Part shown: positions 8,909 through 33,583 of the stretch, one piece after another
How the letters are laid out: the number at the start of each line of letters is the position of its first letter
Numbering within the stretch: position 1 is the first letter of the stretch
Assembly (NCBI GenBank): GCA_022616275.1
Contig: JAKEFB010000192.1
Location: 1 to 33,583 of the forward strand
Source of the DNA: Chloroflexota bacterium
GTDB lineage: Bacteria; Chloroflexota; Anaerolineae; Promineifilales; Promineifilaceae
Length of the DNA stretch: 33,583 nucleotides
Reading direction: 5' to 3'
The notes under the pieces: model-generated
Seen by the model: the letters and a program-made list of their open reading frames with translations, nothing else
Told to the model about the DNA's origin: nothing
Database searches by the model: none
Program-made: the position numbers and the translations under genes

Positions 8909-11900
8909 CTACACCGACAAGGGTGCTATTTTCCCCGTCTGCCAGGTGGAGATAATGCGCCCGTTCGTCCGGTAACTCAGAAAACGCTCCTTCACCCGGG
9001 GGTCCTGAATCTGTTTGCTGAAGCCCATCAAGGTATCATAGGCTCGCTGCACGGCGACGCGGGCTTCGGCCTGGCGGCCATTGGCGGCCAATGCTTCCGC
9101 ATGGCACATGAACACGTCCGGCATCTCCCAGACGTACACTTCCCCCTGAACTTTTTCCAGTTCGGCCATCGCCCGGCCGGTATGCTCCAGGGCCACGATC
9201 ACCTGACCCAGGGCCAGGGACAGCCGTCCCAGCCAGGCCAGGTCGCTAATTATGTTTGATAGTTCACCGCTTTCCTGGCGACTTTGAGCGGCATAGCCCA
9301 GCCACCGCGCTGCCCCGGCCATATCCCCTCGCCCCAGGGCCAGCCTACCCAATAGTTGGGCAGTCCAACCGGCCAACCAATGGTCATCGTAGGCATTGGC
9401 TTCTCTAAACACTTGCTCGTACATAGCCTGAGCCTGGACCAGCTCACCGGCGATGTGATGGGCTACCCCCAGATAGAACAACGGCCGTTGCTCCGTCAGG
9501 CTATGGCCCATGTCCCGGTAAATCCGGGCCGATTTTTGGGCAAAATCACGCACCTTTTCGGCGTCATAGTAGAAATCCCAGGCCGCCGCCAGGGTATAAT
9601 TCGTTCGGGCCTGCCCCAGCCGGTCGGCCTGCTGTTCCGAAATCTCCAACGCCCGCGTGAGATGGGTCAGGGCAAACTCGACTTCGCCCAGGTTTAACTC
9701 GCACCAGGCCAGACCACTGAGACACCGGCTTTCGCCGGCCACGTCGCCCTCTGCCTGGTAAAGTTTCAAGGCCTCCTCGTAATAACGGCGTCCTGTTTTA
9801 TTCTGGCTAATGGTGATTTTGCACGACCCGGCCTGGCTCAACCCCGCGGCCGCCCCACACCGGTCTCCCAGATCAAGGTACTGTCTGGCAGCAGCTAAGG
9901 CTACTTCCGCCGCCCGCTCGTACGCATTCGAGGCGACCAGGTACTCTGATTGGCGCAGATAGGACATGGCCTGCAGCCGTTCATCTGGATAGCGGGCCAG
10001 CAAATCAGTCGCCTGTTGCACAAGCTGGCCCAACTCTTCAGGTGGTGGGCCGGCCACGTGGGGGATAAGCGCCGCCCGATTCAATAAAATCTCGATCAGT
10101 CGCCGTTCGCCGGCCGCCAGATCAAAGCCTGGATAACGGTGCAACTGGTCGAAGGCCTGGGAAGCTGCTTCTAAGGCCTGCAGGGCATCGCTGTAGGCAT
10201 AAAGCCGGGAGGCATGGGCCGCTGCCAGGGGTGCCCATTGAAAGACAAGCTGGAAGCTCTCGCCCTCCAGGGCATGGCGGGTAATGCGGCCGGCTATGGC
10301 CTGGCGCTGCTGAGGCGCAAGACGAGCGGCTATTTGCGCCAGCATATTCGCAACCCGGCGGTGCAGCAGGCTCTGGCGGACATGACTCAACTGGCTGACC
10401 ACGGCTTGCTGGATAAGGTCGTGCTTAAAATCGTAACGAACCAGGTGATTATCGGTTTGGGTCTGGAGCAAGCCACGGCGGAGGCCCAGGTCAATGGCCA
10501 GGGCTACTTCATCGTCGCTACGGCCGCTGGTCTGCTGCGCTTCATCAAGCGTCGCCGGGCTATCGAGAACGGCCATCGCCTCAATGACCTGCCGACTGGT
10601 TTCTGGCAACTGGGACAAACGGCGTCGAATCAGATCGCGAATCGTAGCCGGAACGGGCAGCTCGGCCGGAAGCTGGGTTGCATGGGCTAACTCACGTAGC
10701 ACCTCGGTGACGAATAACGGGTTGCCGCCCGTCGCCTGGGCCAGCATGGCGGCGACGTGGGAGCGATACCCTTCCGGCAGTTTGGGCCAGAGCTGCTCGG
10801 CCAGAGCACTTACGGCCGCCGGCGGTAGTGGGCGCAGGGCCAGACGGTGGGAGGCGAGCCGTTGCAAATCGCTGAGCAGGGTTGGCAGCCCTGGGGCATC
10901 TTCTGCTTCTTCGGAACGGTAGGCGCCGACCAGCAACAGCCTGGCCTGGCCGGCCCGGCGGGCAACGGTGTGAAAGAGGCGTAAACTCATCTCGCCGGCC
11001 CATTGCAGGTCGTCAATAAAGATGAGCGAGGGCGAGGCTGCCTCGCTACGGCCGGGTAGCTGGAAGAGAAATTCACTAATGGCAGCAAACAAATGCTCCA
11101 ACTCGCCACTGCCGGTGGGGGGTGTCTGGGGGAGGCGGCGGCCCAGCCGTTGCGCCAGGCCGGGCGCCAGGCGGGCCAGGTATTCTTGAACGAAGGGGGA
11201 CAACCGTTTCAGGCTGGCGTCGTCTAAAGCACCCAGGCGCGCTTCCAGCACTTCCGTCCAGGGGTGGTAGGGTAGGGCGGTGGTGGATTCATAGCAATGG
11301 CCAACCAGGAAAGAACCGGCCGGCAACAGTCGTCCGAACTCCTGCACCAGGCGCGATTTACCCCCGCCGGCTTCGGCGGCCACCAACACCACGCTACCCC
11401 GGCCGTCCAGAGCAGCCTGCCACGCTGCTTGCAGTTGTCCCAGCTCCGTTTCCCGGCCGACAAAGTCAGGCGCCTGGGGCAAGGTTGTGGCCACTAGGGT
11501 CGCCGGTGTCACTTTGAAAGCAGCGGCCGGCCGGCCGGAGAGTACCGCCGCAACCAACGCGCTCAGTTCCGGCGTCGGCTCGACGGCTAGCTCGCGCCAC
11601 AACAGCTCCCGGCACAACTCAAACTGCCCTAGCGCCGCTTCGCGCCGGCCCGTCTGGGCGTACAGCCAGATGAGTTGGGCGTGAGCCTCCTCCAGTAGAG
11701 AGTTGCTCTGGAGCAGTTGCTGCGCCCGCTGAATAGCGGCTTCATACGCTTCCTGGGCCATCTGGCGAGCGACGATTTCGGCCAGACCGCGCTCGTACAG
11801 GTGGCGCATCTGGCTCCGCTGGCCTAGCAGCCATATTTCAAACTCGGGTGAATCAGGCAGGCCCATCCCCGCCAGAAACTCGCCGCGATAGAGGTTGGCG

Positions 11901-12268
11901 GCTGCTTCCAGTTGCGCCAAAGATTGCCTGGCCAGATTGCCCTCTAAAACCCGGACAAATTCCAGGCAGTCCACCTGGGCCGCCGGCCGGTTGAACCGGA
12001 CGGTATCCCCCTCGGTGACAATCATCTCCGTTCCAAGCTGGCCGCGAATGCGGCTCAACAACACCCGCAGCGTCCTGGTTGGAGCGGCCGCTTCCTGGCA
12101 AAACAAGCTGGCCAGTGTACCGCGATGATGGGCCTGGCTCGTGGCCACTAAATAAGCCAGAAGCGCCCAATCCTTACGGCGTAGCGCCGGCTGTGGCCGA
12201 CCAGGCTCACCAGGATGCGCTTCAACTGGGCCTAAAAAGAGAAGGGACAATGGACTGTCGTTCACCAT
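8909..12268 (-). CDS. AfsR-like regulator: BTAD + AAA/STAND ATPase + TPR
   Basis: This is a 1119-residue protein. Residues 1-95 form an OmpR/SARP-like winged-helix region (LSLLFLGPVEA, then RRKDWALLAYLVATSQAHHRG, then LRVLLSRIRGQLG). Residues about 98-245 are a bacterial transcriptional activation (BTAD) domain. A linker leads to FVGRETEL and an AAA/STAND ATPase with Walker A AEAGGGKS (298-305) and Walker B LIFIDDLQWA (D419, D420). The C-terminal 450 residues are TPR-like helical repeats. This is the SARP-MalT/AfsR architecture, a signal-integrating transcription factor. No ribosome site precedes the ATG at 12266-12268, so translation may be leaderless or start nearby. A paralogue with the same layout sits at 20117-23455. 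Confidence 0.9.
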   Translation of the reverse strand: MVNDSPLSLLFLGPVEAHPGEPGRPQPALRRKDWALLAYLVATSQAHHRGTLASLFCQEAAAPTRTLRVLLSRIRGQLGTEMIVTEGDTVRFNRPAAQVDCLEFVRVLEGNLARQSLAQLEAAANLYRGEFLAGMGLPDSPEFEIWLLGQRSQMRHLYERGLAEIVARQMAQEAYEAAIQRAQQLLQSNSLLEEAHAQLIWLYAQTGRREAALGQFELCRELLWRELAVEPTPELSALVAAVLSGRPAAAFKVTPATLVATTLPQAPDFVGRETELGQLQAAWQAALDGRGSVVLVAAEAGGGKSRLVQEFGRLLPAGSFLVGHCYESTTALPYHPWTEVLEARLGALDDASLKRLSPFVQEYLARLAPGLAQRLGRRLPQTPPTGSGELEHLFAAISEFLFQLPGRSEAASPSLIFIDDLQWAGEMSLRLFHTVARRAGQARLLLVGAYRSEEAEDAPGLPTLLSDLQRLASHRLALRPLPPAAVSALAEQLWPKLPEGYRSHVAAMLAQATGGNPLFVTEVLRELAHATQLPAELPVPATIRDLIRRRLSQLPETSRQVIEAMAVLDSPATLDEAQQTSGRSDDEVALAIDLGLRRGLLQTQTDNHLVRYDFKHDLIQQAVVSQLSHVRQSLLHRRVANMLAQIAARLAPQQRQAIAGRITRHALEGESFQLVFQWAPLAAAHASRLYAYSDALQALEAASQAFDQLHRYPGFDLAAGERRLIEILLNRAALIPHVAGPPPEELGQLVQQATDLLARYPDERLQAMSYLRQSEYLVASNAYERAAEVALAAARQYLDLGDRCGAAAGLSQAGSCKITISQNKTGRRYYEEALKLYQAEGDVAGESRCLSGLAWCELNLGEVEFALTHLTRALEISEQQADRLGQARTNYTLAAAWDFYYDAEKVRDFAQKSARIYRDMGHSLTEQRPLFYLGVAHHIAGELVQAQAMYEQVFREANAYDDHWLAGWTAQLLGRLALGRGDMAGAARWLGYAAQSRQESGELSNIISDLAWLGRLSLALGQVIVALEHTGRAMAELEKVQGEVYVWEMPDVFMCHAEALAANGRQAEARVAVQRAYDTLMGFSKQIQDPRVKERFLSYRTNGRIISTWQTGKIAPLSV

Positions 12269-20116: not shown

Positions 20117-23100
20117 TTATTGCCGTAATTTCAGGGTCATCAATTCGGCCGTGGCCTGATGGTTGGCAAAAATCAGGTGCGCCTGGCTCAGGAGCGCATA
20201 GCCCTGCTGAGACGAGGGCCCAAAACGGAGCATCGCCTGGCCCCAGGCTGCCTGGGTCCGGGCAATTTCGAGTGGTAGGTCGAAGCCAGTGGCCCGCTTT
20301 ATCGTTTGGGCGAAGCCAGCCTCTGCTTCCAGCCAATCGCCCCCGGCGGCCTGCAGACACGCTCGTAGGCGTTCGGCCTGCAGTTGTAAAAGTCCCCGGC
20401 CATGAGCCTGGGCTGTTTCCAGAGCGGCATTGAGATGCGGCCAGGCTTCAGCGCTGCGTTCGGCCAGCAGGAGTGTCTCAGCCAGCCAGATCAGAAGGCG
20501 TGTCCGTAGGTGCCAGTAGCCGCGGCCGCTGATCAACAGGAGCGCCTCCTGTAAAAGGTTTGTCGCGCCGGCCAGGTCCTGTTGGCCACGGGCCGCCAGG
20601 GCCAGCCCAGCCCGGTAGCCGGCCTGGCGTTCGGGATTGCCCAACTCCTCGGCCAGCGCCAGACCCCGTTGGAACGCTTCCTCGGCCGCCTCCCATTCGC
20701 CTAAATAAAGGTGAATCTCACCCTGGGTGCTGGATAAATGCAATAATGCCCCGAGTAATTCATAGGTTTCAGCCAATCTTTGACCGTGTACTAACGCCTG
20801 CTGGGCTGCCTGAAGCCGCCCCAGCAGGAGAGTGTGATAGGCAAAATTGTTACGGGCCAGCGCGTGAAAGTAATGAGCCTGGCCCGCCTCAGCCACATAG
20901 GCCGCTTCTTTGTAGAATTCGAGAGCCCGCAGCAGTTCGCCTCGTTGAGCGGCCACGTTGCCCAGTTCAAACAGGCTGGCGCATAAATCGCGCCGATTTT
21001 CGGCCAGCCGGTGGGCGGTAGTGGCTTCCTGGAGATGGCGTTCGGCCGCCTGGAGATCGCTCCCCTCCATCGCCAGGGCGTGCCCCAGCAGCCGGTGCCC
21101 ACGCCCGGAAAGATTGCTAAAAGCCGGATCGTCCTCTGCCAGCAAGGTGCAGGCCATCAGACCGGCCTCAGCGGCCTCTGTAGCTGCCACGTAATCATTG
21201 CTGACCAGCGCTACTTCTCCTTTTTCAAAATAGGCAGTTGCCTGGGCGGCTGAGTCACCCGTTTGACGTGCCAGATCCAGATACTGTTGCTGCCAGTAGG
21301 TCGCTTCCGGCAGATGACCCAGGGATTGGTGGACGTCAGCAATGACCCGAGTTAGCCGCAGCATTTCATCGGGCGAGGCGGACGGGGCCAGGAGATCGAA
21401 TAAGTGATGCAAAAAATCTACAGTTTCGGCTCCGGTGTAGTCTTGCGGGAGTTTGGGCAGAATTTGCAGACCATAGCGCCGGGCCAGCTCCGCATCTTCA
21501 CCGGCGACGGCATGGTGGGCGATTTCCCAAAGCGGAAAATTGGCCTCGAGAGCAGGACACTTGGCCAGCATCTGAGCCAGTTGGCGGTGCATCATGCGGC
21601 GGCGAACGTGACTGAGCCGGTGTAACATTGTTTCCCGCAACAGGTAATGGGGCAAAGCAAACATGTCGTCCCCAGTTTCAACCAATAGCCGCCTGTTGAG
21701 CAAGTCGTCAATGGTCGTCAGCAACTGCCCGGCCGGAACACCTGGAAAATCAGCCAGGAGAGCAAAGGGCAGTGGCTGGCCAGCCACGGCTAAGACCTCT
21801 AAGATGGAGCGAGCGTCCAGGGTGAGATTCCTCAATCGCCAGGACACCAGATCATGGGTTGTCTCCGGTAAGGTGTAGGCGGCTCGCCAACGAAGCCAGC
21901 GGCCGGGGTCCAGGTGCCAGTGATCGCCGGCCGGGGTCAGGATAGCGTCGGCCTGCAATTGGGCCACCATTTCATCCAGAACAAAAGGATTGCCGCTGGA
22001 TCGCTCTTGCAACCACCTGGCCAGAGAAGGGATGGATGCCGGGCTGATGGCCAGGCCCCGCAGCAGTTCGATGACCTCCTCCTCCACCAGTGGTGGGAGG
22101 GACAACAACTGCAACTGGCCGCGCCGCCGTTCAACAGTGACCAGCCGCTGCAAGGCCGGGATCGCTTCGGGGCGCTGCACCGTGCCGACCAGGAGCAGCG
22201 GCAGGTGATGAAGTCGCGTAGCCAGCAGGCCAAACAAATTGAGCGTTGAACTGTTCGCCCATTGGAGATCATCTATGGCCAGCGCCAGCGGAGCGTTTTG
22301 GCTGAGCCGGCGCAGCGTTTGCAGGATGCGGGTGATAAACTGGTCGCGGGCGGCCGGCGCATCAGTTTTAGGGGCCAACAGCAAGTCGGTAAAGTCGCCC
22401 AGAGGGGTGTCTTGAAAGGCTTCGAGGAAAGGTCCGTAGGAGATCAAATCGTCAAAGGGAGAGCAGGCGCCTTGCAGCACCAGCCAGGGCGGCGTTTCGC
22501 TGGCCAGCCTGGCCAGTAATTCGTTCAAAAGGCGGGTCTTGCCAATCCCTCCGTCACCTTGCAAAAGAACCGTACCCCCGTGGCCGGCTTTAATTTCCTG
22601 GCTGATTGACAGAAGCCTGGTTAGCAACCTGTCACGTCCAACAAAGGGCAAAGCCGGTTGAGTATGCCGGCTCAAGCCCGGCCGGGAGGGCGTTTGAGCC
22701 GGCAACGGGGGCTGTTGGAGTCGAAGCCCTTCCTGAAACAGCGTTCGCGTTTCGGGCGCCGGCGTCAAGCCCAGCTTTTCCTGCAACTCGCCTTCAAAGT
22801 GGTGATATTGCCGCAAAGCCTGGCCGATAGCGCCACTCTTCAGGAACAAAGTGATCAACTGCTGTTGCGCTTCTTCGGCCAAAGGATCGATCTGAACCAG
22901 GCGCTGAAGATAATCAATCGCCTGGTCCCAGTTCTGCCGCGTAGCCGCCAGGTTAGCCAGGCGCTTCAGCAGGCTGAGGTAAGCCTGAATGAGTTTCTCT
23001 TCCTCCAGCCGCAACCATTCGTCGAATAGAGGCGTATCGGGCAGAGTAAAACCGGCTAAAAGCGGTCCCCGGTAGAGAGCAATGGCCTGGATCAGCGCCG

Positions 23101-23455
23101 GTTCGCTCCCCTCGGCGACGAAACGAAGAAAGTCAGTTACATCACAGGCATGGTTGGCCGGTGGGAGGCATAACAGATCCCCCTCGACGGCGATAGCCTG
23201 GCTGAGGCCGGCGGCCTGCAGGGCCCGGCGGAGTTGAAAAAGGGTAGCACGGAGCGAACGCCGGGCGTTGTCTGTAGGAGACTCGCTCCAGAGCAACGTC
23301 GCCAGATGGCTGCGGGTGTGTGGTTGCCTGGTGGCGGCCAGGTAAAACAATAAGGCCCGCGCCTTCTGGGTTTTCAAGGCGAGCGGCTGGCCACGGGCCT
23401 CAACTTCTGGCGCGCCAAACAGCCGAATCGTTAGGGGAGCGGCCGGTTTTGTCAT
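20117..23455 (-). CDS. AfsR-like regulator: BTAD + AAA/STAND ATPase + TPR (paralogue)
   Basis: This is a 1112-residue protein. It has an N-terminal winged helix (LTIRLFGAPEVEARGQPL, then KTQKARALLFYLAATRQPHTR, then RRSLRATLFQLRRAL). A BTAD domain spans about 100-245 (ALYRGPLLAGF, then AEEAQQQLITLFLKSGAIGQAL). The ATPase has FVGRDRLL, Walker A GDGGIGKT (300-307) and Walker B LAIDDLQWA (D395, D396). The C-terminal half is long TPR-like repeats. Here Walker A has the canonical first Gly, unlike the Ala in the paralogue at 8909-12268. GAAGGG precedes the ATG. It is divergent from the phosphotransferase gene, with 76 bases between starts, so it may regulate either that gene or its downstream neighbours. 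Confidence 0.9.
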   Translation of the reverse strand: MTKPAAPLTIRLFGAPEVEARGQPLALKTQKARALLFYLAATRQPHTRSHLATLLWSESPTDNARRSLRATLFQLRRALQAAGLSQAIAVEGDLLCLPPANHACDVTDFLRFVAEGSEPALIQAIALYRGPLLAGFTLPDTPLFDEWLRLEEEKLIQAYLSLLKRLANLAATRQNWDQAIDYLQRLVQIDPLAEEAQQQLITLFLKSGAIGQALRQYHHFEGELQEKLGLTPAPETRTLFQEGLRLQQPPLPAQTPSRPGLSRHTQPALPFVGRDRLLTRLLSISQEIKAGHGGTVLLQGDGGIGKTRLLNELLARLASETPPWLVLQGACSPFDDLISYGPFLEAFQDTPLGDFTDLLLAPKTDAPAARDQFITRILQTLRRLSQNAPLALAIDDLQWANSSTLNLFGLLATRLHHLPLLLVGTVQRPEAIPALQRLVTVERRRGQLQLLSLPPLVEEEVIELLRGLAISPASIPSLARWLQERSSGNPFVLDEMVAQLQADAILTPAGDHWHLDPGRWLRWRAAYTLPETTHDLVSWRLRNLTLDARSILEVLAVAGQPLPFALLADFPGVPAGQLLTTIDDLLNRRLLVETGDDMFALPHYLLRETMLHRLSHVRRRMMHRQLAQMLAKCPALEANFPLWEIAHHAVAGEDAELARRYGLQILPKLPQDYTGAETVDFLHHLFDLLAPSASPDEMLRLTRVIADVHQSLGHLPEATYWQQQYLDLARQTGDSAAQATAYFEKGEVALVSNDYVAATEAAEAGLMACTLLAEDDPAFSNLSGRGHRLLGHALAMEGSDLQAAERHLQEATTAHRLAENRRDLCASLFELGNVAAQRGELLRALEFYKEAAYVAEAGQAHYFHALARNNFAYHTLLLGRLQAAQQALVHGQRLAETYELLGALLHLSSTQGEIHLYLGEWEAAEEAFQRGLALAEELGNPERQAGYRAGLALAARGQQDLAGATNLLQEALLLISGRGYWHLRTRLLIWLAETLLLAERSAEAWPHLNAALETAQAHGRGLLQLQAERLRACLQAAGGDWLEAEAGFAQTIKRATGFDLPLEIARTQAAWGQAMLRFGPSSQQGYALLSQAHLIFANHQATAELMTLKLRQ

Positions 23456-25879: not shown

Positions 25880-27514
25880 ATGAACAAGCCTGAGTGGGAC
25901 GTTATTGTTGTCGGCTCCGGCGCGGGTGGGCTGGCGGCGGCCGTGGCTTTGGCCCAAGGTGGGCAGAAGGTGCTGGTGTGCGAGCAGCACGAAGTGCCCG
26001 GTGGGTGGACTCATTCGTTCACAATGGAAGGCTACCGCTTCAGCCCCGGCGTACACTACATTGGCGACCTGGGTCCGGGTGGCGCCTTGCGCCGCATCTA
26101 TGAAGGATTAGGCGTCTCACAAGACCTGGAGTTTCTGGAACTTAACCCGGATGGTTATGATCGCATCTACGTGGGGCAGGAGCGTTTTGACATCCCCAAA
26201 GGCGAACAGCGCTACGTGGCCCGGTTAAAAGAACGATTTCCCCATGAGGCTAGGGGCATTGACGGCCTCTTTCGCGCCGTGGCGGACATCAACTGGGTTC
26301 TGCAGAAAATAACGACCATGCAGCTCTTTCTCCCGCGCCTGCGTGCCCTGCGCTGGATGTTAGGCACGGCCAGCGAGATGATTGACTACTACGTGCAAGA
26401 CCCCTTATTGCGGGCCATCTTGTCCGGCCAGGCCGGCGACAATGGCCTGCCGCCGTCAGAAGTCTCCTGCATCATTCATGCGGCCATGATGTATCATTAC
26501 CTGCACGGTAGCTATTATCCGCGCGGTGGCGGTGGGGCCATTCCCCGTGCTTTCGTGCGGGCTTTGAAGCGCGCCGGTGGCGAAATCCGGCTGAACACGC
26601 GGGTGCAACAGATCATCGTCGAAAACAAGCGGGCGCTCGGCGTTGAACTGGCGAATGGCGAAAGGCTCTGGGCACGCCACATCGTCAGCAATGCCGACCC
26701 GGAAACGACGTTCATCAAGTTGGTTGGGCCGCGGCACCTTAGCCGCCGGCTGTGCCGCAAATTGCGTAATGTCAGCTATTCGACCTCCGCGCTGAGCCTG
26801 TTTCTGGCGCTGGATATGGATTTGCAGGCCCTGGGTTTTGATTCCGGCAACCTCTGGTTTTATGAGCACGACGATCTGAATGAGATATACACGCAGGCAA
26901 TGGGCGACTATATCTTGTACCATCCACCGGCCATGATGTTCGTTACCATCCCCACCCTGAAGGATCCGGGCCACGTCTATCGCGGCCACCACACGATGGA
27001 AGTGTTCAGCTTTGTCAGCTATGAGCCATTTGCCCGCTGGGCCCACGAGGCTGCTGGTGACCGCTCCTGGGAATATGAAAAACTGAAGACGGAGCTGGGG
27101 GAGCGGATGTTGGGCGTGTTGGACCAGCGTATCCCCGGCCTGAAAGACGCAGTGGTCTTCAAAGAACTGGGCACGCCCTTAACGAATGTGCATTATGTCA
27201 ATACCCATAGAGGCAACATTTATGGCATTGACAAGCACATCCAACAGGTGGGCCCGTTTGGTTTCCGGCCGCGGACCGAAATCAAGAACCTCTATTTGTG
27301 CGGGGCCAGCACAATAAGCCACGGGGTCGCCGCCACGACCACCACCGGATTAATGGCTGCCCAGCAGATTCTCGGCGGCCGGATGAACGACCTCCTGATA
27401 CAAAATGGCCCGCCACTCCCCATCTATCCCTGTGACGACACCAGCCAATGGCCGGCCCGTTTGCAGAAGCGTATTGCCAGCAAACAGGCGCGACGAGGCG
27501 CTGGTCGTTTTTAA
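25880..27514 (+). CDS. FAD-dependent oxidoreductase, CrtI/retinol saturase-like
   Basis: This is a 544-residue protein with the N-terminal dinucleotide fold VIVVGSGAGGLAAAVALAQGGQKVLVCEQ (GxGxxG from Gly 12) and the early HSFTMEGYRFSPGVHYIGDL typical of phytoene desaturase and all-trans-retinol 13,14-reductase-like enzymes. The C-terminal FAD-binding segment is LYLCGASTISHGVAATTTTGLMAAQQIL. Family members add or remove hydrogen across polyene or other isoprenoid double bonds. No ribosome site precedes the ATG, and GATAAGATA lies about 10 bases upstream, so a leaderless transcript is possible. Its last four bases overlap the end of the opposing ABC1-like gene. A role in the neighbouring polyketide pathway is possible but not shown. 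Confidence 0.85.
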   Translation: MNKPEWDVIVVGSGAGGLAAAVALAQGGQKVLVCEQHEVPGGWTHSFTMEGYRFSPGVHYIGDLGPGGALRRIYEGLGVSQDLEFLELNPDGYDRIYVGQERFDIPKGEQRYVARLKERFPHEARGIDGLFRAVADINWVLQKITTMQLFLPRLRALRWMLGTASEMIDYYVQDPLLRAILSGQAGDNGLPPSEVSCIIHAAMMYHYLHGSYYPRGGGGAIPRAFVRALKRAGGEIRLNTRVQQIIVENKRALGVELANGERLWARHIVSNADPETTFIKLVGPRHLSRRLCRKLRNVSYSTSALSLFLALDMDLQALGFDSGNLWFYEHDDLNEIYTQAMGDYILYHPPAMMFVTIPTLKDPGHVYRGHHTMEVFSFVSYEPFARWAHEAAGDRSWEYEKLKTELGERMLGVLDQRIPGLKDAVVFKELGTPLTNVHYVNTHRGNIYGIDKHIQQVGPFGFRPRTEIKNLYLCGASTISHGVAATTTTGLMAAQQILGGRMNDLLIQNGPPLPIYPCDDTSQWPARLQKRIASKQARRGAGRF

Positions 27515-29346
27515 TCGGGATCCGGATCGCGCAAACGAAAAATGATGTGTCGCAAATTCAAGACGACGATCAGCAGAATCACCAATAGATAGAGCCGATT
27601 GGATAGTACCATACCCATCGTCTGGGCGGGGTCCACCCCGCGCTCCGCCTGGTAGGCCCTGAGCGACACAAGCACTGTCGCAATAAGCGTGGCCAGGAAA
27701 ATACGCCAGGCCATGCGGCTTAACACGGATACGGTAAACGTGGCCTTATCTACGACGGAGTTAAAGGTAACAAATGGGGATGAAAGGCGGTGCTGGGCCT
27801 GCCACAAAGCCTCTTCACCTGTTTCGAGCAGCTCTTCCAGTCTCAGGTAGCTTTCGTCCAGGAAAGTGCGCCGTACCTGGTCCCGCAGACGCGCTTTGAC
27901 GAAGCCGGCCCGATCCGCGAGAAAATCGGCATACTCTTCATACCGGTTAACCGTATGGTCCAGGCGTAGCACAAGCGTATCCGCCAGCAGCGTCGCGCGA
28001 ATCATGCGCAACGTGTGCAAACCCAACGGCAGGTTATGGCTGCGCGTTATCCGGACCATCGCCATCCATTGCCGGGCTGACGTGCGTTCCCACCATTCAA
28101 TATGGTCGGAATCTGTCTCAAAGGTGAAGATAAGCTCCTTATACTCAGCCACGGCCTCCTTCATTAACTGGGGAACATCCACCGGCGGAAACGGCTCCAT
28201 CAGCGTCAGGGTGGCCCGCGCCGCGCCCTCCGCGTCACGGTTCAAGGTGCTCAAGATGATCTGTTCTATCGCCATTTTTTGTTCAAAGTTGAATGACCCA
28301 CACGATCCGAAGTCAATAAAGGTCAGCTTGCTGTTGGGGCGCACGAGAATGTTAGCCGGATGCGGGTCTGCGTGAAAGAACAGATTCTCGCTCATGCTCC
28401 AGTGGTTGGTCCAGAGAATGCGCTTGGCGACCAGGCGCGGGTCAATATTCAGTTCCCGCAGTTTGGCCAGGCCGCGCTCATCCTGGAACTCTTTGACGGC
28501 AATAACCTCCCAAAGCCACATGCCGGAAACAAATTCCTGGACGATGACGGCCGGACCTGATAGCTCAAAAAAGACCTTCGGCGCAGAAAAAAAGTCATAC
28601 GGACACGCTTCCGCGTTGCGGCGAAAGATATCCTGGAAGCGCGCTTCCTTCGTAAAATCCAGCTCCTCCAGCAGCGTTTCACGAAACTCGACACGCAAAT
28701 ATCGGGTGAACCCCGGCCGCAAGACAGTCAGAAACTCCAGCAGGCCAAAGAGCCAATCAAGCACGCGGAAATCAGCCGCAAACAGTTGGCCGATACCCGG
28801 CCGGCGCACCTTCACCGCCACTTTCGTACCGTCCTTCAGCAATGCCTGGTAAACGCAGGCAATAGAAGCCGACCCAATTGGCTCCGGATCAAAAACGGCA
28901 AAGATCTCTTGCCAGGGCTTGCCCGTCGTTCTCTGGACCACTTGCAGCGCCTCTTCTGTGGGAAATGGCGGCACCTCGTCCAGCATCTTGTTTAATTCAG
29001 TGCAATATTCCCAGGGCAACAGGTCAATACGCATGGCCGCCTGCTGGCCGAACTTCACAAAGGTGCCACCGGCCTTTTCCAGCCCTTCTCGCAACCGGGC
29101 GGCCCGTCGTTCAACAGTATCGTTCCCGTGCAGCTTGTCGCGGATGATACCGCCCAGTAAATAGGTAAAGAAGTAAAACCAGGTGAGGAGGCGGCGCAAA
29201 GAGCGGGCGAATCCCGATTCAAAGTGCAAGCCCTGGATGATCGGCGCAAGGCTGCCCTCAACTGGGAGACCAACAGCAGGTTCCCGCCGGGGAATGCTAC
29301 CAAGAAAGCCGCTTGCCGGGCTGTCGCCGTCGGGGTAAATAGTCAT
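27511..29346 (-). CDS. ABC1/UbiB (AarF) family atypical kinase-like protein
   Basis: This is a 611-residue protein. The family-defining KxGQ motif is VKFGQQ (Lys 98, Gly 100, Gln 101). The Ala-rich nucleotide loop IGSASIACVYQA (157-168) replaces a Gly-rich loop, followed by VAVKVRRPG (Lys 179), the catalytic HADPHPAN (325-332) and metal-binding IDFGSCG (Asp 345). Two hydrophobic segments near the C-terminus (around 550-567 and 582-600) would anchor it in the membrane. UbiB/Coq8-type proteins are ATPases that support quinone and other isoprenoid-lipid synthesis. It starts 24 bases after the type II thioesterase stop, so it is the last gene of the polyketide operon, where it may handle a hydrophobic product. 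Confidence 0.9.
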   Translation of the reverse strand: MTIYPDGDSPASGFLGSIPRREPAVGLPVEGSLAPIIQGLHFESGFARSLRRLLTWFYFFTYLLGGIIRDKLHGNDTVERRAARLREGLEKAGGTFVKFGQQAAMRIDLLPWEYCTELNKMLDEVPPFPTEEALQVVQRTTGKPWQEIFAVFDPEPIGSASIACVYQALLKDGTKVAVKVRRPGIGQLFAADFRVLDWLFGLLEFLTVLRPGFTRYLRVEFRETLLEELDFTKEARFQDIFRRNAEACPYDFFSAPKVFFELSGPAVIVQEFVSGMWLWEVIAVKEFQDERGLAKLRELNIDPRLVAKRILWTNHWSMSENLFFHADPHPANILVRPNSKLTFIDFGSCGSFNFEQKMAIEQIILSTLNRDAEGAARATLTLMEPFPPVDVPQLMKEAVAEYKELIFTFETDSDHIEWWERTSARQWMAMVRITRSHNLPLGLHTLRMIRATLLADTLVLRLDHTVNRYEEYADFLADRAGFVKARLRDQVRRTFLDESYLRLEELLETGEEALWQAQHRLSSPFVTFNSVVDKATFTVSVLSRMAWRIFLATLIATVLVSLRAYQAERGVDPAQTMGMVLSNRLYLLVILLIVVLNLRHIIFRLRDPDPD

Positions 29347-29370: not shown

Positions 29371-30117
29371 TTATCTCAGGTGCAGCGCCAGATCTGCGGC
29401 TACGTCCCAGACCATGGACGTCCGGGCGTCATTAAGAAAGAAATGCCCGCCGGGATACAGGCGCAGTTGGAATGATTGGGTGGTATACCCACGCCAGGCC
29501 GCCAGTTCCGGCCGGGACGCCTCCTTATCCTGTTCGCCGCCAAAGCAAGAGATAGGGATAGCCAATGGAGCCTCGGTAGCGTGCTGGTACAACTCGTTAG
29601 CGGCCATGTCGGCCCGCACGATCGGCAGGAAGAGGCCCATCATTTCCGGCGACTCTAGAATCTGGGCCGGTGTGCCGCCCAGGTCGCGCAACCAGGCAAC
29701 CAATTTGTCGTCGGGCAGTTGGTGAATCAGCGGCGGCGGCGACGGCAGATGCGGCGCGCGACGCGCGGCCAAAAAGAGATGTACCGGCTGGCTACCCGCC
29801 TGCCGGCGCAGCAATCGCGTCAGTTCAAAGGCAATCAACGCACCCAGGCTGTGCCCCAAAAACGCGAAGGGCTCGTACAAGAGGGAGTGCAAGCCATCCG
29901 CCAGGGCCTCGACCAACGGCCCGAGGCGTATGAAGAGCGGTTCGCGAAACCGGTTTTCCCGGCCGGGTAGTTTCACGACGTGCATTTGCAGGCCGGGCGG
30001 CATGATCCCAGCCCAGGGAAAGAATTGGGTGGCGCTGCTGCCGGCCGAAGGGAAGCAGAACAGGTGCAGTTGCGCCCCTGGTTTCTCGTTGTAGGAAACA
30101 ATCCACTGATTAGTCAT
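29371..30117 (-). CDS. type II thioesterase (alpha/beta hydrolase)
   Basis: This is a 248-residue protein from the ATG at 30117; a GTG at 30123 would add two residues. Typical type II thioesterase features are LHLFCFPSAGSSATQFFPWA, VVKLPGREN, the nucleophile elbow GHSLGA (Ser 90), GEQDKE for the acid, and YPGGHFFL for the catalytic His. Such enzymes free stalled or mis-primed acyl groups from carrier proteins of polyketide or peptide synthases. The ATG overlaps the stop of the DUF6208-like gene by 8 bases, so translation is coupled. This fits an editing partner for the synthase encoded two genes upstream. Confidence 0.9.
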   Translation of the reverse strand: MTNQWIVSYNEKPGAQLHLFCFPSAGSSATQFFPWAGIMPPGLQMHVVKLPGRENRFREPLFIRLGPLVEALADGLHSLLYEPFAFLGHSLGALIAFELTRLLRRQAGSQPVHLFLAARRAPHLPSPPPLIHQLPDDKLVAWLRDLGGTPAQILESPEMMGLFLPIVRADMAANELYQHATEAPLAIPISCFGGEQDKEASRPELAAWRGYTTQSFQLRLYPGGHFFLNDARTSMVWDVAADLALHLR

Positions 30118-31048
30118 TGACACAAGTCAGCTTGATCCACTCCTGGCCAAGCCGGCCGGCGGCCGGCACCTTCTGGTGTAGTCGAACCAGATAGAAGCCG
30201 TCTGTGGGGCTTTCGGGTGTCTGGTGCCTTGCTTCCACGATTTCATACCAAAACGTGGGAAAGCTGCGCCGGTCATAGGCCGTGAAGTATATATTATACG
30301 TCTCCAAAAGCTGCTGTTCCAGTTCGACGTGCCAGGCTCGCCCCTTTCTCAGAAGCCCATAGGCGAATCGCGTTTCCGGGTTGCCGACCGGCAGGAATTC
30401 CCGTTCGACAAACGCCCGCGAAAATCTGTCCCGGTAACGCAAAAGGGGGCTTATGTAGTAATGCAGGCAGAGGTAAAAGAAGCTGGCCCGCTCGTGCAGG
30501 TGGGCATAAAACTGATTTGGCTCTGACTTGATCGCCCTGGCGCTGACAAACGGCTCGCCGTCAATCCACACCTCCGGCAAGGCAATATCGCGCGACCATT
30601 TGTAATATCTTATGCCGAGCATATACATTCCTGGCTCAAGCCTGAATGTCTGCCACCGGTCGGCAAATGGTCCGTCCAGTGATCCGATGCGGCTGACAAG
30701 GCTGTTATCGGCCAGGCAATACACCACTGCGGTCCAGGATTGGGCCGCTTGCCGCACGACGTCAACGTCAAAGCTGATCGCCTGCCGCACTTCAAACGGC
30801 CCGGCCGTGGCGATCATCGCGTGGGGATTCCAGCGCGGCCCGGTTGTCATGGTGACAGGGAGCGCCAATGGTCGTTCCAGGCCCTCCTGATCCAGCACCC
30901 GCCAGTTGGTGGCCTGTTCCTGGAGCCGGCCGGACAAAAGCACAACGCCGCGCCGGAGCATATACCTGATTGTCTTATAAAACAGGAAAGAGAGGACGGC
31001 CAGCGGAATTTCGTAGAGGGCGCTCAACCGGCTACGGCTTTTGTTCAT
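30110..31048 (-). CDS. DUF6208-like protein of the polyketide operon
   Basis: This is a 312-residue protein of unknown function. I chose the ATG at 31048 (MNKSRSRLSALYEIP), which overlaps the synthase gene by 17 bases; a start at 31120 would add 24 residues read wholly inside that gene. A hydrophobic N-terminal segment (PLAVLSFLFYKTIRYML) suggests membrane attachment. The rest is soluble, with a beta-rich part (FRLEPGMYMLGIRYYKW, VWIDGEPFVSA) and an aromatic stretch FYAHLHERASFFYLCLHYYI. It recalls DUF6208 proteins, which I remember next to type I polyketide synthases in cyanobacteria; the name is tentative. Its tight packing between synthase and thioesterase implies a role with the polyketide product. 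Confidence 0.72.
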   Translation of the reverse strand: MNKSRSRLSALYEIPLAVLSFLFYKTIRYMLRRGVVLLSGRLQEQATNWRVLDQEGLERPLALPVTMTTGPRWNPHAMIATAGPFEVRQAISFDVDVVRQAAQSWTAVVYCLADNSLVSRIGSLDGPFADRWQTFRLEPGMYMLGIRYYKWSRDIALPEVWIDGEPFVSARAIKSEPNQFYAHLHERASFFYLCLHYYISPLLRYRDRFSRAFVEREFLPVGNPETRFAYGLLRKGRAWHVELEQQLLETYNIYFTAYDRRSFPTFWYEIVEARHQTPESPTDGFYLVRLHQKVPAAGRLGQEWIKLTCVND

Positions 31049-33583
31049 CGAAGAGTTTGCTGGGTTTGTGCCTGGCAGTAGCCTCGACGATGGCGTCGGC
31101 CAGTTGTGCCGGCAGCTCATAATGAAGATGGTGCCCCCCAGGCAGGGCCACTGGGGTGACGTTCGCCGCCTCGGCTAACTGTTGTGCTAACTCTCGCGTC
31201 CTGGCGTCGCGCGTGGCTGTGCCGAAGACAACCATGAGCGGCAGCTTTTTTTGGCCTAGCAAGGCTGCGTATTTTGCCGGCGACGTCTCCCCAAATTCCA
31301 GGACGATGCCGGTACGTGTGCGCAAAAGCGGATCCCAACGCCATTTGACGCCGCCGGCGTAGGGTTCGGTGAGCCGCTCGGCTACGCGCAGGGCTGTTTC
31401 AGCTCTCATGGCCGGGATGGCCTGGCGCAGCCGGCCGGCCGCGGCCTGTACGTCGGGCAGCACGTCATGTTGCGGGGAGCTGGCCAGATAGTCCAGATGG
31501 ACGGCTAACTTCTGCTGCACATCGTCCACGCCCTCGTTTTGCGATGCGGCCATCTCGACCAGGATCAACGCGCCGAGCTTTTCCGGCCGGATCGCTGCGT
31601 ACATCAGCGCCAGGACCGCGCCCATCGAGTGTCCAAGCAACGTGAATGGCGCGGGCCCGCTGTCGTGTACCGTCCCGCGGACAACCCCGTCAATATCCGC
31701 CAGGAAGTCGAGTAGATGGTATGAGCCACCCGCACCAATGTGACCGGAGCGACCATGGCCGCGCAAGTCAGGGGCAATGACCTGAAAACCGCGGGCGACC
31801 AGCGCCAGCGCCACCTCTTCCCAGGCAGCCCCATGATCAAGAATACCATGCACACAGAAGACGGCCGGCGCTTCCGCCGATCCCCAGGCGCAAACGCAGA
31901 TCGGCAGGCCGCGCACATCAACTATGAACTCGCGGCGGGTTGTTCCACCGTTCTGGGAAGGCGCCAGCCCGGCCGTCTCCGGCTCGGCCGGCAGTTTATA
32001 GCGCCAGACGGCAGCCAACTGGCGCGTAGCAGGTGCCAGCGGCCGGGGCAGCTTTATATTCTGCCACGCCTCGGCCCTCTCACCCAGAATGCGATCGTGC
32101 TTGCGGAAATTGGGATCTTCAATCGCGGCCGATAGCGGCGTCACGCCGTCTGTCATCCGGTCGCCGGTATAGGGCTTTAAGACCGCGCCGTCAAAGGGGA
32201 TCTCGAGAAAGGCGCAGAGTTGCCGCATCACGCGCTCAGGTTCGGTCACCAATTCCTCAAAACGTACCAGGTGCTGCCGCTTCGGATCCACGTCCAACAG
32301 GAAGTGGCTGATCCGCTCATTACTGGTCGCCCACACCTGCTCCGCCAGTTGGTAAGGCTCAACGTCTTCTACCCCCAACAATTTGTGCATCCGCTGGCGC
32401 ACAAAGGAGTCAATGGCCGCATAGGGGTGGCGCAGCAGATGAATAAACCGGGCCTGGGGAAACAGAAGCGCAGCCCGGCGCAGGGTCTCCTCGCTGGCGG
32501 CCGTGCTCGGCGACTTGTCTACCAGAAGGCGCGGCCGGGCGAGTTGTTGTAACAGGGCATACACCTGCACGGTCGGCACGTTTTCGGCCACCATAGCGGC
32601 CAGCAACGCGGCGCTTTCCGCCGCATCAATGTGCTTCAGTTCCATCAAGGCCCGCTGCAATCCTTCACCGAGATAGGTTAACCCCAGTTGGTCTTGACGC
32701 TCGGCCATGGTTATAAACGGCAGCAAATGTAGCTCCGGAGGAGAGAACAGGTCCGGGTGACCGGCGAGCATGACTCGCAGGAGGGTGGAGCCGGACCGGG
32801 GGCTGGAAAGCAGGAAGATAATCCCTTCGTCCAGGCCGGCCGGGTGCCCGGCCGGGGCAGCGAGAGTACCCGGCCGCCCGGCCGGAGCAGCCACCAATGT
32901 AGTCATCGTCTCCGGTTCGGGCGCCTGTCCATTATGCATCCGCGTAAATTCCCTCGCCAGATAGGTGGCCAGCGCTTTAATAGAAGGTCGTTCGTAAACT
33001 TCGCGCGGATAGAGAGTGAGTTGCAGTTCCTCCTGCAATTCATTCAGCAGTTCCATGACCATGAGCGAATCAGCGCCCAATTGGACAAAGTTCTGGTCAA
33101 CCGCAATGGATTCTTGCTGCGCGCCGATAATGGCGGCGATTCTACGCTGCAGATAGCTTTCCAGGATTGCCTGACGTGGCTCGTCGCCATCTACCTGCAA
33201 AAGCTCGGTGAATATCCGGCCCCTGGATGGCCCGGCCGGTGGAGCAACGGTCGCTGTTTGCCGTTCATCCTGGAAATCGGCCAGCAGGGGGAGCGGCTGT
33301 TGCCCGGCAAAGCGGCCCAAGTACATAGACCAGTCCACCAGCAAAGCCGCGATCTGGCCGGTGCCGGCCGTATTAGCAGCTCGTAAGATAGCGGCGAGCA
33401 TCTCCAGACCGGTGGCCGGCGGGATGGTGCCCATGCCGGCCGCGGACCAGCGCGCTTGTTGTTGTTTGCCGACAGCCTCGGCCATCCCCAGGCCGGCCCA
33501 GGGACCCCAGTTAATGGCGGTAGCCGGCAACCCCTGGGCGCGGCGATGGTGGGCCAGGCTGTCCAAAAAGGCGTTGGCCGCGG
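31032..33583 (-). CDS. modular type I polyketide synthase C-terminus: KR(end)-ACP-sulfotransferase-thioesterase (partial)
   Basis: The frame is open to the right edge (AANAFLDSLAHHRR at the border), so the synthase starts outside the window. Residues are numbered from the first visible Met at 33566. Residues 1-90 are the tail of a ketoreductase (TAINWGPWAGLGMAEA). Residues about 130-205 are an acyl carrier protein (GADSLMVMELL, Ser 167 for phosphopantetheine). Residues about 248-510 are a PAPS-dependent sulfotransferase (SSPRSGSTLLRVMLAGHP from 254, FIHLLRHPYAAIDSF from 374). Residues about 545-840 are a thioesterase with GHSMG (Ser 647), LVE (Glu 671) and GGHH (His 812). This order and the Glu acid match CurM and cyanobacterial olefin synthases, which make terminal alkenes. 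Two downstream genes overlap it or each other. Confidence 0.92.
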   Translation of the reverse strand, partial: AANAFLDSLAHHRRAQGLPATAINWGPWAGLGMAEAVGKQQQARWSAAGMGTIPPATGLEMLAAILRAANTAGTGQIAALLVDWSMYLGRFAGQQPLPLLADFQDERQTATVAPPAGPSRGRIFTELLQVDGDEPRQAILESYLQRRIAAIIGAQQESIAVDQNFVQLGADSLMVMELLNELQEELQLTLYPREVYERPSIKALATYLAREFTRMHNGQAPEPETMTTLVAAPAGRPGTLAAPAGHPAGLDEGIIFLLSSPRSGSTLLRVMLAGHPDLFSPPELHLLPFITMAERQDQLGLTYLGEGLQRALMELKHIDAAESAALLAAMVAENVPTVQVYALLQQLARPRLLVDKSPSTAASEETLRRAALLFPQARFIHLLRHPYAAIDSFVRQRMHKLLGVEDVEPYQLAEQVWATSNERISHFLLDVDPKRQHLVRFEELVTEPERVMRQLCAFLEIPFDGAVLKPYTGDRMTDGVTPLSAAIEDPNFRKHDRILGERAEAWQNIKLPRPLAPATRQLAAVWRYKLPAEPETAGLAPSQNGGTTRREFIVDVRGLPICVCAWGSAEAPAVFCVHGILDHGAAWEEVALALVARGFQVIAPDLRGHGRSGHIGAGGSYHLLDFLADIDGVVRGTVHDSGPAPFTLLGHSMGAVLALMYAAIRPEKLGALILVEMAASQNEGVDDVQQKLAVHLDYLASSPQHDVLPDVQAAAGRLRQAIPAMRAETALRVAERLTEPYAGGVKWRWDPLLRTRTGIVLEFGETSPAKYAALLGQKKLPLMVVFGTATRDARTRELAQQLAEAANVTPVALPGGHHLHYELPAQLADAIVEATARHKPSKLFDEQKP

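Follow-up and report, generated by a model that had tools for sequence, protein, structure and literature searches.

A CurM/OLS-like polyketide synthase end in a Chloroflexota bacterium, and the association of such synthases with DUF6208

Hydrocarbons and curacin-type products can be made through terminal-alkene release by a sulfotransferase and a thioesterase (ST-TE), a known route that has been studied mainly in cyanobacteria. Here we describe a putative ST-TE end of a polyketide synthase (PKS), and the DUF6208 gene that adjoins it, in a stretch of 33,583 bp from a Chloroflexota bacterium. This stretch (the window) is the entire contig C97 of the genome. The genes at its right end are all on the minus strand. 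First, a frame of 849 amino acids (31032-33581) is open at the contig end, and Pfam and phmmer read it as the C-terminus of a ketoreductase (KR), an acyl carrier protein (ACP), an ST, and a TE. Just 29 amino acids of the KR are present (33495-33581; amino acids 1-29, which match positions 151-179 of the 180 in Pfam's KR profile), and the remainder lies off the contig. The ACP (32958-33155; PP-binding, PF00550, amino acids 143-208, 4e-16) has a GADSL motif, and its top non-self matches are ACPs of chains that bear an ST. The ST is a CurM/OLS-type sulfotransferase (31974-32822; Sulfotransfer_3, amino acids 255-464, 2e-36) that uses 3'-phosphoadenosine-5'-phosphosulfate (PAPS), with a PRSGSTLL loop and a PELHLLPF motif. 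The CurM-type TE (31086-31931) is an alpha/beta hydrolase by Pfam (amino acids 572-830). Directly 3' of the TE is a gene for a DUF6208 protein (30110-31048; PF19713, 1e-97, 327 bits versus the curated cut-off of 25). If it starts at the ATG at 31048, it overlaps the TE's frame by 17 nt, and if it starts at the ATG at 31120, the overlap is 89 nt. A type II thioesterase follows (29371-30123; PF00975, 4e-42), whose GTG start overlaps the end of DUF6208 by 14 nt, and the last gene of the run encodes an ABC1/UbiB-like atypical kinase (ABC1a; 27511-29346; PF03109, 6e-57).

The three best matches to the PKS frame in the PDB were the ST of CurM (4gbm, 5e-101), the ST of olefin synthase (OLS; 4gox, 1e-87), and the TE of CurM (3qit, 8e-71). 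Each alignment covers nearly the whole solved chain, and the E-values exclude a chance similarity. A preliminary description of the window had reported the end of a KR, an ACP, an ST, and a TE in this order on one chain, and the Pfam and PDB matches agree, with the KR known only from its C-terminal 29 amino acids. The PRSGSTLL loop, which starts at amino acid 261, was at the residue number given there. In the 849-residue numbering, the catalytic residues of the TE are Ser652, Glu676, and His817. The preliminary description had given Ser 647, Glu 671, and His 812, which are the same residues in a count that begins with the TTG at 33566. Since the chain runs on past the contig end, this TTG is no true start. 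In an alignment of 28 TEs, the Ser, the His, and one Arg are invariant, and the Glu position has E in 25 rows and D in 3. We take the invariant Arg to be Arg205 of CurM, as its position fits the chain offset of 3qit. The window's TE aligns at full length with the TEs of CurM and OLS.

A phylogeny of the ST relative to CurM and OLS had been chosen beforehand as a check on the CurM/Ols-like assignment. In a quick tree of 93 rows, the window's ST is on a long branch and groups with CurM and OLS, in a group of 68 rows (SH-aLRT 93). Seven STs that are embedded in nonribosomal peptide synthetases (NRPSs) are separate from this group (SH-aLRT 100). The PELHLL motif has its His in 76 of the 77 STs that bear a TE or served as references; for the other ST, the motif was not read. 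The PDB matches, the ST tree, and the catalytic residues of the TE all uphold the CurM/Ols-like assignment.

To see where such ends occur, we scanned named genomes. The best 80 of 372 relatives gave 80 loci with 82 ST chains, and 74 of the 82 have a CurM-type TE on the same chain. The complete KR-ACP-ST-TE arrangement was read in 71 of these 74 (the exceptions are L099, L111, and L117). By phylum, 70 of the 74 are from Cyanobacteriota, one is from Actinomycetota, one is from Acidobacteriota, and two have no phylum assigned (one of these is L063, "Aff. Roholtiella"). The 8 chains without a CurM-type TE are from Chloroflexota (5, with three in one record), Hydrogenedentota (2), and Prochloron (1); in Prochloron, the TE is present in another frame. 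We also searched 400 Chloroflexota genomes with a TE profile (E of 1e-40 or better). A PKS-borne CurM-type TE was found only in the host genome (9e-113); three other Chloroflexota matches (8e-45 to 3e-41) are in frames of 295-556 amino acids. Our searches of an open-licence library turned up no report of a Chloroflexota ST-TE.

By homology to the characterized CurM and OLS enzymes, the KR would form a beta-hydroxyacyl-ACP, the ST would sulfate the beta-hydroxyl from PAPS, and the TE would hydrolyze the thioester. Loss of CO2 and sulfate would then leave a terminal C=C. The domains and the catalytic residues for these predicted steps were observed in the frame. What the preliminary description saw as a terminal-alkene-type PKS end is confirmed as an observation, and its interpretation is supported at the level of sequence.

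Several results pull the other way. The residue after the catalytic His of the TE is usually Asn and is His in the window (among the 28 TEs, it is N in 23, H in 3 including the window, and D in 2). The placement of the TE is weak: it groups with rows from Acidobacteriota and Actinomycetota, outside the cyanobacterial rows, with long branches and an SH-aLRT of 72, and the free tree puts two ordinary hydrolases, on a very long branch, among the ST-TE rows. A single clade of the 27 ST-TE TEs versus nine ordinary hydrolases was not rejected (p-AU 0.617), which is no proof of the clade. As for the ST, the window's group includes four PKS STs without a TE (L071, L115, L126, and L128), and 14 TE-bearing cyanobacterial STs fall outside it, so the type of ST alone does not prove decarboxylation. 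The three domains might instead sulfate the chain and then release a sulfated or plain acid, with no alkene. PKS STs without a CurM-type TE occur in Chloroflexota and Hydrogenedentota, which makes sulfation with no decarboxylation plausible for the group, and the replaced Asn would fit as well. Nevertheless, among solved structures the window's TE is nearest to the decarboxylating TE of CurM, it keeps the Ser, Glu, and His as well as the invariant Arg, and DUF6208 accompanies ST-TE rather than ST alone (see below). We therefore consider release without an alkene to be quite unlikely.

The TE-less STs are of two kinds. PKS ACP-ST modules without a CurM-type TE are found in Chloroflexota and Hydrogenedentota (L071 3884-10948, L115 4343-14104, L133 1-5772, L126 554-6052, and L128 419-7234). 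Three of them continue into NRPS modules (L115, L126, and L133), the one in L071 ends shortly after the ST, and the one in L128 has 324 more unassigned residues. Judging from this arrangement, mid-line sulfation that leaves the sulfate on the product is possible. The other kind is CurM-like STs inside NRPS modules (C-A-PCP-ST and similar, some with another C-A afterwards), in Anaerolineae relatives (L044 4409-13319, which is in genome G057 and is the same as L071; L049 6562-17277; L050 2-6748; L051 6500-11071; and L052 6399-9245) and in the host itself (L043 9824-13606, on contig C95). The NRPS-borne chains lack a CurM-type TE, their STs, in which the His of PELHLL is missing, form a clade apart from the PKS STs, and the A-domain codes of their modules vary. 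NRPS-borne or OLS sulfotransferases are treated in PMC2533009, PMC6520454, and PMC4558948. Finally, L045 (3363-13517, genome G011) is OLS-like (FAAL-ACP-KS-AT-KR-ACP-ST) and ends with 663 amino acids that have no match to the CurM-type TE. This tail starts like a PF00975-style thioesterase, which might be a swapped terminus.

The DUF6208 gene beside the TE, and its association with CurM/OLS-type synthases, go beyond the preliminary description. Downstream sequence of 1.5 kb or more was available for 62 ST-TE chains, and 37 of these have a DUF6208 gene within 3 kb (11 of 24 chains with a FAAL and 26 of 38 without). The 37 include the CurM-like gene of Moorena (L077) and the Acidobacteriota record L112. 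DUF6208 is also present in the Actinomycetota record L056, which is under the 1.5-kb cut-off. Altogether, the records in which it is next to ST-TE are labelled Cyanobacteriota, Acidobacteriota, Actinomycetota, and Chloroflexota. For 32 ST-TE loci with no DUF6208 in sight, we searched the genomes and found the gene in 30. (One of these 30 matches spans just 51 of 316 positions, and some of the copies may lie barely past the stretch taken for the locus.) DUF6208 was found in none of 5 genomes with an ST and no TE, and in none of 14 control genomes.

We then drew 386 cyanobacterial genomes evenly and counted TEs in frames of over 2,000 amino acids. DUF6208 is present in 13 of these genomes and a CurM/OLS-type PKS TE in 12, and all 12 are among the 13. 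(Four of the 13 had also contributed loci to the ST scan.) That is, DUF6208 is in 12/12 genomes with the PKS TE versus 1/374 of the others (P = 7e-22, Fisher exact test, uncorrected for kinship). Near-threshold TE matches in three other genomes (G168, G190, and G196) are in frames of 292-326 amino acids, and we found no DUF6208 and no PKS ST in those genomes. In Chloroflexota, DUF6208 is in 1 of 400 genomes, and it is in 1 of 119 relatives; each time, this is the host. Pooling the two phyla (786 genomes), DUF6208 was found in 13/13 genomes with a PKS-borne CurM-type TE and in 1/773 without.

DUF6208 might be a mere hitch-hiker, near ST-TE through shared inheritance and without a role. Kinship among the genomes does inflate the counts, one genome has DUF6208 by itself, and two ST-TE genomes have no detected DUF6208. 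On the other hand, adjacency of DUF6208 and ST-TE spans records of four phyla, and DUF6208 is retained when it is unlinked. For example, in G302, DUF6208 and the TE are about 1.1 Mb apart in the record. Distances between DUF6208 proteins correlate with those between TEs (r = 0.81) and between STs (r = 0.86; Mantel tests, 42 loci, 0 of 5000 permutations each), and for comparison, TE and ST distances correlate at r = 0.84. Furthermore, three genomes have two distant ST-TE loci each. Their paired DUF6208 copies are only 35-37% identical, and the nearest relative of each copy lies beside a synthase of the matching group and is not its paralogue. (In L086, the single nearest row is not the same for DUF6208 and the TE. 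In a fourth two-locus genome, from Okeania, both loci are close paralogues.) We consider the hitch-hiker explanation unlikely.

DUF6208 looks like a so far unrecognised, dedicated partner of decarboxylative chain termination. An AlphaFold model (pLDDT 88.8) has a 45-residue N-terminal helix and then a beta-rich body. The protein, made from the overlapping downstream gene, is probably membrane-anchored, and from its association with ST-TE it would receive or handle the hydrophobic terminal-alkene product or assist ST-TE. We would go further only tentatively, with a little less than even confidence: across bacteria, synthases that form terminal alkenes with the aid of sulfation may have in DUF6208 a dedicated and near-obligate third component. 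Anchored in the membrane, it would take up the newly formed alkene or the sulfated intermediate and determine how this is released or passed to the membrane. Work on curacin and olefin synthases would then have missed it, and the overlapping Chloroflexota locus would help to reveal it. We did not find the word DUF6208 in the literature that we examined, in a text search on the name and not on the accession PF19713.

Some findings do not sit well with such a partnership. Genome searches found no DUF6208 in two ST-TE genomes (G142 and G145). Conversely, DUF6208 is present in G314, which has neither a PKS ST nor a PKS TE and whose sole ST match (2.8e-16) is in a frame of 303 amino acids. The fold of DUF6208 best matches solved proteins that are uncharacterised. 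Also, in the cyanobacterial and Chloroflexota searches, no more than 5 or 6 first-look candidates were scored for each genome, and absences there are accordingly not absolute.

Does the contig belong to a Chloroflexota bacterium? The host genome (8.53 Mb in 309 contigs) has a completeness of 98% and a contamination of 5.5%. Searching 60 genomes (the host and 59 relatives), we found related ST domains in G027, from the same family, and in G057, from the same class. The G027 contig is identical in sequence, checked in full, to the record L133 (Anaerolineae bacterium CH7), and the G057 contig matches L071 (Anaerolineae bacterium A05DMB-I-32), with identity verified on the stretches that were tested. 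G008, which is from the same family, has a kinase (on its contig C61) with 58-59% identity to the ABC1 kinase of the window. The GC content of the window is 0.598, as compared to 0.58-0.65 in stretches of ten other host contigs (mostly PKS/NRPS contigs). Because of the G027 and G057 records, the ABC1 identity, and the similar GC content, we conclude that the host belongs to the Chloroflexota (Anaerolineae) and that the contig is very likely native to its genome. The preliminary description had guessed at a Chloroflexota host, and the link from the same-family G027 to L133 bears out this guess. The contig could instead be a cyanobacterial contaminant, given the bin's 5.5% contamination and the preponderance of Cyanobacteriota (70/74) among named ST-TE chains. 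But the adjacent ABC1 gene and the GC content tie the contig to the host's family and to the host's other contigs, and no row in the trees is more than 59% identical to the window's ST or more than 50% identical to its TE. This explanation is largely refuted already, and we view it as very improbable.

The rest of the synthase probably starts on another host contig, C200. In the relative G008, a single block comprises an FHA/ABC transporter and two ABC1 genes in tandem. In the host, one of these ABC1 genes has its best match on C97, in ABC1a, just after ST-TE, DUF6208, and the type II TE. The other ABC1 gene and the transporter are best matched on C200 (53% and 59% identity), beside a FAAL that starts a PKS. 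After the FAAL, C200 encodes ACP-KS-AT-DH-KR-ACP, KS-AT, an HMG-CoA-synthase-like gene (HCS), two enoyl-CoA-hydratase (ECH) genes, and more modules. Further fragments (C195, C168, and C169) have mutual tips that are 86-98% identical, and the left tip of C195 is common with C200. From the synteny, the PKS end on C97 probably belongs to this repeat-rich, FAAL-primed, HCS/ECH beta-branching PKS; this link too goes beyond the preliminary description. It is weakened by the contig ends: we found none that overlaps C97 and none that joins C97 to C200.

The alternative is a one-module olefin synthase (FAAL-ACP-KS-AT-KR-ACP-ST-TE) that converts a fatty acid to a 1-alkene, as in Synechococcus PCC 7002. 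The ST-TE half is identical in type, many cyanobacterial ST-TE chains share the one-module architecture, and the upstream part of the window's chain lies off the contig, which stops within the KR. Against this, synteny with G008 sets the start of a multi-module FAAL/HCS/ECH PKS at the same locus, and the best non-self match of the KR fragment is a KR of the multi-module fragment C168 (46% identity), although cyanobacterial KRs score nearly as high. A one-module synthase is unlikely in our view. Because the synteny ties C97 to the PKS on C200, a multi-module curacin-like product is likelier than a simple 1-alkene. The likelier product would be a branched, partly unsaturated chain with a vinyl end, closer to curacin-type logic. 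A system "perhaps making 1-alkenes", as suggested earlier, is less likely than one with such a beta-branched, vinyl-ended product. Taking these parts together, we think it likely, from sequence comparisons, that the window encodes the terminal module of a type I PKS with sulfation-assisted decarboxylative release together with a DUF6208 partner, and that this PKS probably starts on C200.

The block of ABC1/UbiB-like kinases and a multi-FHA ABC transporter is conserved (L136 3517-11786 in G008; L137 6852-13650 on the host's C200). In G008, this block adjoins a halogenase-like gene.

We compared the window to known systems. It shares the ACP-ST-TE order with CurM, from curacin A biosynthesis, and its ST is 55% identical over the aligned domain. 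Its TE is 44% identical to the CurM-like TE in Moorena (L077), where the CurM-like frame is followed 19 nt later by the opening of the DUF6208 frame. Curacin biosynthesis has an HCS/ECH cassette, and so does the host's contig C200, which is probably part of the window's cluster. Unlike CurM, the window is from another phylum, it has His for Asn after the catalytic His of the TE, it continues with a type II TE and an ABC1 kinase, and its upstream modules are on no joined contig. As for OLS (4gox), the terminal domains are alike and the ST is 52% identical. DUF6208 is within 3 kb in the 11 of 24 FAAL-bearing chains noted above; for the remainder, most of the genomes searched have it elsewhere. 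OLS is a single FAAL-ACP-KS-AT-KR-ACP-ST-TE module, whereas the window's chain is likelier to be multi-module, and no FAAL was seen on C97. The distribution of OLS in cyanobacteria is covered in PMC3903477. Another non-cyanobacterial ST-TE end is that of HlaB (haliamide; Haliangium ochraceum, Myxococcota). According to PMC6274090, it was proposed to form a terminal alkene, and its TE and ST are 37% and 41% identical to those of CurM. HlaB differs from the window in its myxococcal host and in that its last module has no KR. PMC11837247, PMC7381351, and PMC6361979 were consulted as well.

The ST-TE ending itself appears to be of an already known type, now in Chloroflexota, and this example broadens the range of terminal-alkene release by ST-TE. 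A weightier result than the extension in range is that DUF6208 is a specific and genetically testable candidate partner gene for ST-TE synthases. If DUF6208 is needed for the output or the placement of the alkene, this would bear on olefin engineering and on how hydrophobic products exit the enzyme.

Elsewhere in the host genome, contig C285 (L018 7641-17633) encodes a single chain of 3331 amino acids, FAAL-ACP-KS-AT-ACP-C-A-TD, with a reductase-type end (NAD_binding_4), which is a second lipopeptide-like pathway. In the window itself, 8909-12268 and 20117-23455 each encode a large BTAD-AAA_16-TPR regulator (about 1,100 amino acids).

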